From contig SVII01000004.1 of NCBI GenBank assembly GCA_015069605.1, positions 1 to 64,000 on the forward strand: 64,000 bases of DNA. Direction: 5' to 3'. The notes under the pieces were generated by a model that was given only the letters and a program-made list of their open reading frames with translations, was not told the DNA's origin and did no database searches. A program made the position numbers and the translations under genes. Within the stretch, counting starts at the first letter, position 1; each line of letters starts with the position of its first letter. Below, piece by piece: positions 45,761 to 49,854 of this stretch. This DNA comes from Clostridiales bacterium. Its GTDB lineage: Bacteria > Bacillota > Clostridia > Christensenellales > Borkfalkiaceae.

Positions 45761-45791
45761 AAAAAAATAATCCCCTGCGTTCTCACAGGGG
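45761..45791 (-). terminator. Intrinsic terminator of the candidate large ncRNA
   Basis: Minus strand CCCCTG-N8-CAGGGG followed by ATTATTTTTTT. Confidence 0.8.
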
Positions 45792-46437
45792 AAATTATCT
45801 TCGTATTTAGTTGTGAGCGTATTTCGTTCTTTTCATCTGTTTGTGCGCACATACGTCGCGAGCCGACTTATCTTAAGCCGCAAATATTCAGATTACTCTT
45901 TTTATTGAACGCCCTCGTTTTCACAGTTCATTGGTTTTTACCTCACTTTTCTTTCTCTAACCTGAAGGTTTTTTGCCGACCGCCGTCGGCACTTTACGTG
46001 TACGTCGGACCGTCTCCTTTCCTTTCGGTTTTACTTCTTGAAGCCACACTAATCATGCTCGTGCACCTCCTTACATATTCCCCTGCCTCACGGCAGCTTC
46101 TTCCGTCCACGTTTTCGATTTCGTCAAACCGTCCCGCTTCCGTGTCGCATCAATCCGTATCCTGCTCTTCCAGCTTGTCAAGTACCTACCGGGATTTCGT
46201 CAATTCCCCATTTGCCTCGCTCGCGGACCGCTTATTGATCACCTTGTATCAGGCTTTTGCCTCTTCGTGGGAAGGAATCATCGCTTTTCGTACCCTCCTT
46301 TTCTTTTTTGTTCGTTCGACGTATCCCTACGCCACTTTGTCAGCCCTCACCGACTTACTTTTATCTGTCCATCGGTCTATTTTTCCTTTTTTGTTGAAAA
46401 TTTTAAACACTTTTTGTTTCGTTCTTTCTTTTTTGTA
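45765..46437 (-). ncRNA. Candidate large structured non-coding RNA (about 670 nt), class not identified
   Basis: Strong extended -10 promoter at one end and intrinsic terminator at the other; no plausible long ORF; several compact hairpins (GCCGAC-GGCG-GTCGGC, CTGCC-GTGA-GGCAG, GGCGTA-GGGA-TACGTC, CC-GAAA-GG, AACCT-TC-AGGTT). Confidence 0.65.
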
Positions 46438-46442
46438 CCTTT

Positions 46443-46470
46443 ATTATAGCAAATATTTTTCATTTGTCAA
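46443..46470 (-). promoter_or_regulatory. Strong sigma-A-type promoter driving the candidate ncRNA
   Basis: Minus strand TTGACA - 16 bp - TATAAT with extended -10 TGC. Confidence 0.8.
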
Positions 46471-47121: not shown

Positions 47122-48840
47122 TTATTGTTTTGCTTTTTCCAAAAGTTCAGCAACCGCCGCCTGCAATTCGGTCAGTTTTTCATTTGCCGCGCTTTCGTCT
47201 TTTGCTTTCAACGAATAATAGATTTTAAGTTTTGGTTCTGTTCCCGAAGGACGTACGCAAACGAACGAACCGCCCTCCAATTCATAATATACGCAATTAC
47301 ATTTCGGCACGTCGATTTCTCCCACGTTGCCGTTTGCATCCGTGCGTTTTGCGGCGCTGTAATCGCGAATTGCTTGCACTTTGATTCCTGCAAATTCGTC
47401 CACTTTCAAGGTCTTTAACCCGTCAACTACCGCGTTCATTTCCTTCATCGCATTCAAGCCGGAATACTGAATGGACACGTTTTTATCCAATACGTAGCCG
47501 TATTTTGCGTAGATTTCCTGCAATCTGCCATATACCGATTTCCCGATATACGTATAATAACAAACCATTTCCGCACAAAGCATGGACGCTACCACAGCGT
47601 CTTTATCGCGCGCGTGCGTGCCACGCAAATATCCGCAGGATTCTTCAAAGCCGAACACGTACGTGTGTTTATTATCCTTTTCCCATTGTTTAATCTTTTC
47701 GCCGATAAATTTAAAGCCAACGGGCGTTTCGTACAACGTTACGCCGTAATCGTCACAAAGCGCCTTCGCCATCCCCGTCGTCACGAAAGATTTCACCACC
47801 GCCGCATTGACAGGCATTTCGCCCGATTCAGATAAGCGAGTAAGAATATAATCCAACAACAAAATACCAACTTGGTTGCCCGAAAGAGCGACAAATTCGC
47901 CCTGTTCGTCTTTAATTGCCACGCCAAGACGGTCGGAGTCAGGATCCGTTCCAAACACCACGTCCGCATTAATTTCGTTCGCAAGCGCAATACCCATCGA
48001 CAGCGTTTCTTTGTATTCGGGGTTAGGCACTTTTACCGTGGAAAATTCGGTGTCTTTCGTCGTTTGCGCTTCCACGATCGTCGTATTGATACCGAGTTTT
48101 TTCAAAATCGTCGTAACGGGTACGAAACCGCTGCCGTGAACGGGCGTGTACACAAGCTTCAAATCCGCGCCGCATTTTTCTACCGCTTCTTTGGAAAGGG
48201 TGAGTTTGGAAAGCTCCGCAATATAATCTTCATCCAATTTTGCAGGTACGGGCAAAATTAAGGGGCTTTCTTCAAGCGCCGAAACGGAAAGATAATCTTC
48301 GATTTTATTGATATACGAAACAACTTTTTCGGTGTCTTCAGGGGACATTTGTGCGCCGTCTGCTCCATATACTTTGTAACCATTGTATTCCTTGGGATTA
48401 TGGCTTGCCGTAATCATAACGCCTGCAATCGTACCCAAATAACGCACCGCGTACGAAAGCATCGGTACGGGATGTACGTCGTCGAACAAATACGCTTTGA
48501 TACCATTCTTAGCCAACACTCCTGCGGAAACTTTTGCAAATTCCTGCGATTTACGGCGAGTATCGTACGAGATGACTACGCCTTTTGCTTGTTCTTCCGC
48601 GCTGAGCGTTTTGATCCATTCCGCCAAGCCCTGCGTTGCGCGCATAACGGTGTAAATATTCATCATATTCATACCGTAGCCAATCACGCCGCGCATGCCT
48701 GCCGTACCAAATTCCAATTCGCCGCCAAAGCGGTATTCTTGCTCTTTCTCGTTCGTTGCAATACTTTCGAGTTCTTTCTTCCCCTCTTCGCAAAGGCGCG
48801 AATCGTTCAACCAAGTTTGATAATTTTTACGATAATTCAT
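47122..48840 (-). CDS. Candidate internally initiated free phosphoglucomutase
   Basis: GGAGG (48846-48850) 5 nt upstream of in-frame ATG (48840), exactly at the usual N-terminus of this family. Confidence 0.5.
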   Translation of the reverse strand: MNYRKNYQTWLNDSRLCEEGKKELESIATNEKEQEYRFGGELEFGTAGMRGVIGYGMNMMNIYTVMRATQGLAEWIKTLSAEEQAKGVVISYDTRRKSQEFAKVSAGVLAKNGIKAYLFDDVHPVPMLSYAVRYLGTIAGVMITASHNPKEYNGYKVYGADGAQMSPEDTEKVVSYINKIEDYLSVSALEESPLILPVPAKLDEDYIAELSKLTLSKEAVEKCGADLKLVYTPVHGSGFVPVTTILKKLGINTTIVEAQTTKDTEFSTVKVPNPEYKETLSMGIALANEINADVVFGTDPDSDRLGVAIKDEQGEFVALSGNQVGILLLDYILTRLSESGEMPVNAAVVKSFVTTGMAKALCDDYGVTLYETPVGFKFIGEKIKQWEKDNKHTYVFGFEESCGYLRGTHARDKDAVVASMLCAEMVCYYTYIGKSVYGRLQEIYAKYGYVLDKNVSIQYSGLNAMKEMNAVVDGLKTLKVDEFAGIKVQAIRDYSAAKRTDANGNVGEIDVPKCNCVYYELEGGSFVCVRPSGTEPKLKIYYSLKAKDESAANEKLTELQAAVAELLEKAKQ

Positions 48841-49854
48841 TTCAGCCTCCAACTGATTGATTTCTTGTTCTTTTTCTATTGCCGTTACGCCGTCCGCCGT
48901 TTCGTCGATATAATCAAAGAAATGTTCGCGATCGCCGAAATCGGGATTGGTGGCAATACGTTCGTACGTGATGAAATATTTTTTACCCTTGATCGTATAA
49001 TAATTGACGAACTGTTCGCAAATAAACAACATATACGACGTGGGAACGGTAATCAAAAGCGAGCTGCCAAACGTACAAGCCGCCGCCGCTACGTTGATGA
49101 CAATCACAATGTACACCGTAATGAGATACGTTGCAAAAATTTTGGCTCTTTGTTTCTTTTCGCGATTATCCGCATAACGGAACGCTTCGTGCAATTTTTT
49201 ATTATCCGCTACCATTGCAGGCATCCAACGCCCCGTAAACGTAAGTTTCGTCGTTTGACAAAGCGCGCCTACGGTGCTTGCAAAAAACAAACCGATTAGT
49301 ATGGGCATTGTCGCGATACACAGCAAACAAAGCACCAACGTTGCGACGTCCAACAAAAAAACCACGGGAACATATACAAGCGAATATCGCGTTGCTTTGC
49401 CGAGATTTGCGATAAACGATGTAAAGAAAGGCGTTTGCGAATACGTCGTCATTTTGTCGTTGAGGATACTGCCTACTGCAAAATGGCTGAGCGTATTGAC
49501 AAAACGTTGCAACAAATAAACGATAACGCAACCCAATACCATCAAAAGTAATTTCGTTGTCATGGACGCAATATACGTCAACATATCGTGAAGCGCACCG
49601 CTTGCGCCAAAAATTTTATCTCTAACCTCCAACAATGCTTCCGTGTTCATAGAAAGAAACGCGCGAGCAAATTCCTGTAAATGTGCAACTAAGCGTTGAA
49701 ACTGTACACTTTGCCCTATGTCAATGAGTTCGGGGAGAATAAAGGCTACGCAAAGCGCCGTCGCCACCACCGTTACTACGACTTTATATATCAATAAGCG
49801 ATAAACGTTTTTAAAGTTTTCCGACAAAAGACGTAAACTGTTACGAAAACGCAT
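47122..49854 (-). CDS. Fused ORF: polytopic membrane domain (about 338 aa) plus phosphoglucomutase/phosphomannomutase (about 572 aa)
   Basis: N-terminal half has multiple hydrophobic helices. C-terminal half begins MNYRKNYQTWLND and carries GTAGMRGVIGYGMNMMN, TASHNPKEYNGYKVYG, GTDPDSDRLGVA, RPSGTEPKLKIY. Confidence 0.88.
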   Translation of the reverse strand: MRFRNSLRLLSENFKNVYRLLIYKVVVTVVATALCVAFILPELIDIGQSVQFQRLVAHLQEFARAFLSMNTEALLEVRDKIFGASGALHDMLTYIASMTTKLLLMVLGCVIVYLLQRFVNTLSHFAVGSILNDKMTTYSQTPFFTSFIANLGKATRYSLVYVPVVFLLDVATLVLCLLCIATMPILIGLFFASTVGALCQTTKLTFTGRWMPAMVADNKKLHEAFRYADNREKKQRAKIFATYLITVYIVIVINVAAAACTFGSSLLITVPTSYMLFICEQFVNYYTIKGKKYFITYERIATNPDFGDREHFFDYIDETADGVTAIEKEQEINQLEAEMNYRKNYQTWLNDSRLCEEGKKELESIATNEKEQEYRFGGELEFGTAGMRGVIGYGMNMMNIYTVMRATQGLAEWIKTLSAEEQAKGVVISYDTRRKSQEFAKVSAGVLAKNGIKAYLFDDVHPVPMLSYAVRYLGTIAGVMITASHNPKEYNGYKVYGADGAQMSPEDTEKVVSYINKIEDYLSVSALEESPLILPVPAKLDEDYIAELSKLTLSKEAVEKCGADLKLVYTPVHGSGFVPVTTILKKLGINTTIVEAQTTKDTEFSTVKVPNPEYKETLSMGIALANEINADVVFGTDPDSDRLGVAIKDEQGEFVALSGNQVGILLLDYILTRLSESGEMPVNAAVVKSFVTTGMAKALCDDYGVTLYETPVGFKFIGEKIKQWEKDNKHTYVFGFEESCGYLRGTHARDKDAVVASMLCAEMVCYYTYIGKSVYGRLQEIYAKYGYVLDKNVSIQYSGLNAMKEMNAVVDGLKTLKVDEFAGIKVQAIRDYSAAKRTDANGNVGEIDVPKCNCVYYELEGGSFVCVRPSGTEPKLKIYYSLKAKDESAANEKLTELQAAVAELLEKAKQ

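Follow-up and report, generated by a model that had tools for sequence, protein, structure and literature searches.

It has long been asked how bacteria adjust rRNA synthesis to the demand for translation; the known routes run through ppGpp, initiating NTPs and Nus factors. One element of this control is boxA, the core of which in E. coli is CUCUUUA. Single RNAs that are both structured regulator and mRNA are exemplified by SgrS and RNAIII, with a single ORF each. To our knowledge, start-stop minigenes, micro-ORFs in fixed order and an rRNA-leader element are not combined in any known free-standing transcript.

In E. coli, NusB-S10 binds boxA, which is located at −147 to −133 relative to 16S; another set precedes 23S (PMC10250234). 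The action of Nus factors on boxA is not confined to rRNA: the boxA of the E. coli suhB leader links Nus factors with translation, acting in cis on the downstream gene (PMC5725501). Two-codon minigenes, such as lambda bar, axe-txe mg2 and that of the ler leader, consist of an ATG, one or two codons and a stop behind a Shine-Dalgarno site; minigenes are a known cause of peptidyl-tRNA drop-off and can have toxic effects (PMC8708949). Among large RNAs, ROOL and GOLLD are encoded by phages (PMC12286853).

The RNA studied here is encoded at 45765-46437 on the minus strand of the window, by which we mean the whole 64,000-nt stretch of clostridial DNA that was analysed. It belongs to a family of stand-alone bacterial RNAs that is previously undescribed, and the literature searched, open papers only, held no such RNA. 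Like SgrS and RNAIII, it would be regulator and mRNA in one molecule, but with 3-5 ORFs in fixed order.

The transcription unit and its relatives

The locus forms an isolated transcription unit, with about 675 nt between promoter and terminator. The promoter (46443..46470, −) matches the consensus at 12/12 positions. It consists of TTGACA (46470-46465), a 16-nt spacer and TATAAT (46448-46443), with the TG of an extended −10 element, and is nearly invariant in the genus alignment. At the other end lies an intrinsic terminator (45761..45792, −), the stem of which is formed by TCCCCTGTGAGAACGCAGGGGA and TTATTTTTTT at 45792-45771 and is followed by a T run. This stem carries compensated changes in the homologues. 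In a swap test, its native pairing score was 20.4 versus 12.9 with swapped partners, and 0/20,000 permutations reached the native value.

The minimum free energy of the window RNA is −172.8 kcal/mol, compared with −148.7 ± 6.9 kcal/mol for dinucleotide shuffles (z = −3.5), and 0/20 shuffles were as low. The transcript strand has no ORF of more than 20 codons with a ribosome-binding site between promoter and terminator. The preliminary description had read the locus as an orphan unit with its own promoter and terminator, structured, noncoding and without a convincing ORF. The first part was borne out, as both promoter and terminator are kept in homologues; the folding energy and the strong covariation described below agree with the second. 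The last part is true by length only: the window RNA has four conserved micro-ORFs, of 3, 10, 20 and 9 codons.

The genomes compared are uncultured metagenome-assembled genomes. A DNA search gave matches in 53/57 genomes of the genus, some to the promoter region only, and the full element was recovered in 48/57. It is carried by uncultured Clostridia living in the gut of roe deer, sheep, goat and water deer. Homologues range from about 420 to 900 nt, and the tail and the terminator are present in all recovered members of the genus.

Beyond the genus, covariance model R2 found members in 21/41 genomes, covering 11/18 genera of the family. The family loci that were inspected, with E-values up to about 0.02, carry promoter, Shine-Dalgarno sites, short ORFs, tail and terminator. 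Model R3, less clean than R2 because weak second matches to the 5' domain were part of its alignment, added further members, among which L146 and L139 are probable ones from other families of the order. On this sequence evidence, the RNA family probably extends to two more families of the order. Five other order-level matches (L144, L147, L148, L150 and L151) were set aside, since they resemble chance or coding matches.

A chain of micro-ORFs

Each RNA contains a chain of micro-ORFs of 2-20 codons with Shine-Dalgarno sites. The chain opens, after the 5' hairpin, with a start-stop minigene, which in the window reads ATG GAC AGA TAA (MDR*; 46361..46372, −). It consists of CCRATG, one or two sense codons and a stop; only L016 lacks the CCRATG. 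In 47/47 homologues with CCRATG the stop falls at codon 3 or 4, compared with 3 and 0 of 47 in the other two frames and a mean of 4.5 (maximum 15) in shuffles. The stops are TAA (28), TAG (14) and TGA (5), and the peptides vary (MHK*, MNK*, MH*, MN*, MQ*, MG*, etc.). With a median Shine-Dalgarno duplex of −6.6 kcal/mol, the minigene has every part of a two-codon minigene, namely ATG, one or two sense codons, stop and Shine-Dalgarno site. Known leader minigenes act on a downstream gene, whereas this one stands at the head of a free-standing structured RNA and is found again in other genera.

The last ORF in the chain, ORF D (MNCENEGVQ*; 45902-45931, −; Shine-Dalgarno GAGGT within 45938-45946), is 9-14 codons long. 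It has a CCRATG start and an open frame with a stop at codon 10-15 in 48/48 homologues, compared with a shuffle mean of 9.5 and a maximum of 21. Between minigene and ORF D, short homologues carry a single ORF, the RYFNKK-type ORF C with 14-19 codons. In long homologues, ORF C is preceded by ORF A (MIPSHxEAxA*), an optional structured module and then ORF B (..DTPTY*). In the window, ORF A (MIPSHEEAKA*) lies at 46249-46281 (−) with its Shine-Dalgarno site at 46292-46300, and ORF B (MISVASRSKTERKGDGPTYT*) at 45994-46056 (−) with the Shine-Dalgarno site TAAGGAGGT at 46065-46073. ORF C, which nearly all relatives keep, is lost in the window, where 45934-45993 has no Shine-Dalgarno site or ATG.

The optional module (AGCGAGGCAAATGGGGAATTGACGAAATCCCGGTAGG; 46185..46221, −) is present in some homologues and absent in short ones. 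Its sequence GCAAATGGGnAATTGACGAAnTTCCGGTAGGCnCTCG was seen in L004, L022, L023, L076 and the window, and L022 also has a duplicated hairpin P3. The RNA thus seems, judging from these comparisons, to evolve by module gain and loss.

In many other genera a minigene (2-4 codons) is again followed by a short basic ORF C and then by ORF D, in many of them together with promoter and tail; in some genera, the minigene was not recognised. Three loci from other genera (L098, L099 and L102) have CCAATC or CCGATT in place of CCRATG at the start of ORF D, where ATC and ATT are possible near-cognate starts, and an extra micro-ORF with CCAATG just upstream.

We then asked what the substitutions say about the peptides. 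ORF B has a synonymous excess in its own frame only (14/28 versus 7.4 expected, p = 0.007). The core of ORF C likewise has an in-frame excess (p = 0.0025) that is absent in other frames, and the start of ORF C has none. ORF A shows no synonymous excess, so peptide-level constraint is not supported for it. ORF D shows none either. For the minigene and ORF D, selection appears to act on translation itself rather than on the peptide. By this evolutionary evidence, the window RNA appears to be translated.

The in-frame excess in ORFs B and C, the strong Shine-Dalgarno sites and the recurrence of short basic ORF C peptides in other genera would also suit a polycistronic mRNA for micropeptides. Its active products would be the peptides of ORF B (..DTPTY) and of the short, basic ORF C (..RYFNKK), and the stems would be no more than untranslated scaffolding. 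We consider this unlikely. The minigene yields only 2-3 residues, ORFs A and D show no peptide constraint, short homologues do without ORF B and the window has lost ORF C; moreover, the rRNA-like tail and stem S4, described below, are left unexplained. Secreted pheromones or toxins were set aside as well, as the peptides are short, hydrophilic or basic, with no signal or membrane stretch by eye.

The 3-5 ribosome-binding sites per RNA have median duplex energies of −6.6 to −12.3 kcal/mol versus −3.9 kcal/mol at random positions, ORFs A-C having been picked in part for their Shine-Dalgarno sites. Together with the invariance of the minigene and the known link of minigenes to peptidyl-tRNA drop-off and possible toxicity (PMC8708949), these sites raise the idea of a ribosome or 30S decoy. 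The Shine-Dalgarno and minigene array would hold initiating ribosomes or drain initiator or peptidyl-tRNA, and the tail would only stabilise or process the RNA. To this, too, we assign a low probability, as it leaves the invariant rRNA-leader element, and its tie to ORF D through S4, unexplained.

Stem S4, the tail and the rRNA leaders

The 5' part of the RNA has three hairpins. P1 (46396..46428, −), similar to hairpins found in other genera, has weaker swap-test support (6/20,000 permutations reached native pairing) than the terminator, P2 (46339..46354, −; 0/20,000) and P3 (46318..46333, −; 0/20,000). P3 has a conserved (A/C)GGGA loop and two-sided changes.

The 3' domain was built from hand-anchored stems, an eight-sequence seed and a covariance model. 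It contains an inner three-stem domain, S1-S3 (45835..45893, −; S1 pairs 45889-45893 with 45835-45839), and stem S4, in which GGGCGT (45909..45914, −) within ORF D pairs with ACGCTC (45815..45820, −). S4 thereby ties codons 6-9 of ORF D to the sequence immediately preceding the tail. This stem occurs in 48/48 homologues with varied sequence: GGGCGT/ACGCTC, AGGAATGC/GCATTCTT, AAGGATCG/CGATCCTT, AGGAAAT/ATTTCCT and others. In the swap test, S4 scored 18.1 with native partners versus 12.3 with between-species partners, and 0/20,000 permutations reached the native mean. In the model-based alignment of the 3' domain, two-sided changes are seen in 21/23 pairs, pairing holds in 90.9% of cells, and covariation scores 0.567 compared with 0.180 for shuffled and at most 0.081 for slid partners; this alignment was fitted to the structure, whereas the swap test was not. 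RNAalifold returned no structure for the 3' domain when given a plain MAFFT alignment, in which the variable linkers throw this domain out of register.

The last unpaired stretch before the terminator is the tail, ACAACTAAATA (45804..45814, −). All 63 members compared share its pattern AMAAYTnAATA, with a single exception at one final base; the 64-kb window has two occurrences of the pattern, one of them being the RNA tail.

The 16S rRNA was located in 23 genomes of the family, and the leaders compared come from other genera of the family, the RNA's own genus being without an available rRNA operon. AMAAYTnAATA occurs exactly in 16/23 of these leaders and with at most one mismatch in 23/23, at −151 to −197 from 16S (for example, AGCTTAAAAATTGAATAGAAGGAAA). 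Shuffles of the same leader stretch gave at most 2 exact occurrences and at most 4 with one mismatch or fewer. Of the internal transcribed spacers before 23S, 7/8 have GATTG-ACAACTGCATAG or a close variant, which differs from the motif by one mismatch. The tail sequence is therefore the element that the family carries both in its 16S leaders and before 23S, and five genomes (G466, G474, G439, G448 and G312) have both the RNA and an rRNA leader. A pattern search of the metagenome-assembled genomes for the classical TCTTTGAAAACTGAATA returned mostly chance sites without rRNA. In one leader (L128, from G466), GAAGGAAATGAATTAA directly follows the boxA-like element and reads as a Shine-Dalgarno-like site with a two-codon minigene, MN*; this may be chance, and other leaders differ.

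We call the tail boxA-like because the same element stands in the family's 16S leaders and pre-23S spacers, where the E. coli boxA lies. The likeness, which is one of sequence and placement, extends to an E. coli-like position in the leader (PMC10250234). The difference is that here the element forms the 3' end of a separate RNA, before a terminator, with its 5' half in a covarying stem with an ORF. This 5' half is set by S4 pairing, unlike the CUCUUUA core of E. coli, and only the 3' half is invariant. The suhB boxA likewise lies outside rRNA (PMC5725501), but acts on a downstream gene, whereas the window RNA has no conserved downstream gene.

The anatomy of the RNA is well supported, and from it we infer a mechanism, which we put forward tentatively as the reading we currently prefer. 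A stand-alone RNA would act in trans: translation of ORF D would expose the boxA-like element, which would then compete with rRNA operons for Nus factors. S4 would cover the position of the element's 5' half, using the 3' codons of ORF D, and a ribosome translating ORF D would open S4. Once exposed, the element might bind NusB-S10, or another leader-binding factor, away from the rRNA operons. The more spare initiating ribosomes there are, the more of the element would be exposed and the more rRNA antitermination would be damped, so that the net effect would be feedback from ribosome supply to rRNA synthesis. The minigenes upstream of ORF D could hold ribosomes on the RNA or recycle them onto it.

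We are more hesitant about going further, to a new class of translated regulatory RNA in which minigenes and micro-ORFs sense initiating ribosomes and uncover a decoy boxA, with feedback on rRNA synthesis; this is possible but doubtful. Against a pure translation sensor stands the peptide-level constraint on ORFs B and C, which a sensor does not need. If true, however, an RNA linking ribosome-loaded minigenes physically to a copy of the rRNA antitermination element would sense translation demand directly. Whatever the mechanism, the conservation of 2-3-codon ORFs across genera implies that strong selection can act on ORFs far below annotation thresholds, and that neither gene finders nor RNA family libraries pick up such RNAs.

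Genomic context and known RNA families

In 40/43 loci the nearest upstream gene shares the strand of the RNA; it is most often mreB (26/43), preceded by maf and ppx/gppA. Counted over the whole upstream flank, mreB is found in 32/48 loci, usually as the immediate neighbour and again preceded by maf and ppx/gppA. An assignment of the upstream neighbours as ruvAB was rejected, as Pfam gives MreB/Mbl, Maf and Ppx/GppA. The copy in the window is placed elsewhere, between a divergent methylglyoxal-synthase-like gene and a downstream ROK-like gene, with a phosphoglucomutase gene also nearby.

Only 22/42 loci have their first downstream gene on the strand of the RNA, and these first genes belong to 33 different clusters. 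Across these 42 loci there was no conserved same-strand downstream gene, and the mixture of strands and clusters indicates that there is no cis target and that the RNA most likely acts in trans. A boxA-like element just before a terminator, preceded by short ORFs as in attenuators, does bring to mind a cis-acting leader, that is, an attenuator or antiterminator for the next gene. We regard such a leader as improbable, given the unrelated downstream genes on either strand and the promoter-like site that the next gene has of its own in the window and in L002.

The preliminary description had likened the RNA in size and isolation to ROOL, OLE and GOLLD, without assigning it to any of them, and had proposed an Rfam search (ROOL, OLE, GOLLD, RNase P, tmRNA) and a covariation check. 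Covariation proved strong in the homologues, no known family was matched, and the likeness was not supported. In the window interval, cmscan found no family at its gathering score, and the hits at E ≤ 10 were two chance matches far below the cut-off. The 64-kb window gave tRNA only, and 20 homologue loci gave no match. The preliminary description had found no landmarks of RNase P RNA or tmRNA. RNase P RNA (RF00010) is excluded by a separate gene in relatives that also carry the window-type RNA, and tmRNA by negative ARAGORN and cmscan results at the locus.

The RNA shares with ROOL, GOLLD and OLE its large size, structure and own transcription unit. It differs in the lack of any sequence or structure match, in not being found in phages, and in a core of apparently translated micro-ORFs with an rRNA-leader-like tail. 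Phage or prophage location, often near tRNA islands, is typical of ROOL and GOLLD; the locus does not show it, and the window's only tRNA is 25 kb off. A divergent ROOL, GOLLD, OLE or other known large RNA, as size, isolation and hairpin density might suggest, is thus a negligible prospect in view of the silence of Rfam on the window and the 20 homologue loci, the silence of the ROOL model in 41 genomes (weak evidence alone, its control being silent too) and the lack of any viral contig with the conserved motif, whereas ROOL and GOLLD are phage-encoded (PMC12286853).

Two features of the flanking DNA were noted in passing. In L022 and L023, repeats of about 100 nt, GCGGCG(T/C)GATACTTCGTCGCGCT..GTTACGTACGCGCCCTCAGG, lie in the intergenic region after the RNA terminator. 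The phosphoglucomutase gene of the window (47122-49854, −) encodes a 910-aa protein in which about 350 hydrophobic residues precede the phosphoglucomutase (residues 381-883), making it an unusual fusion with a membrane domain.
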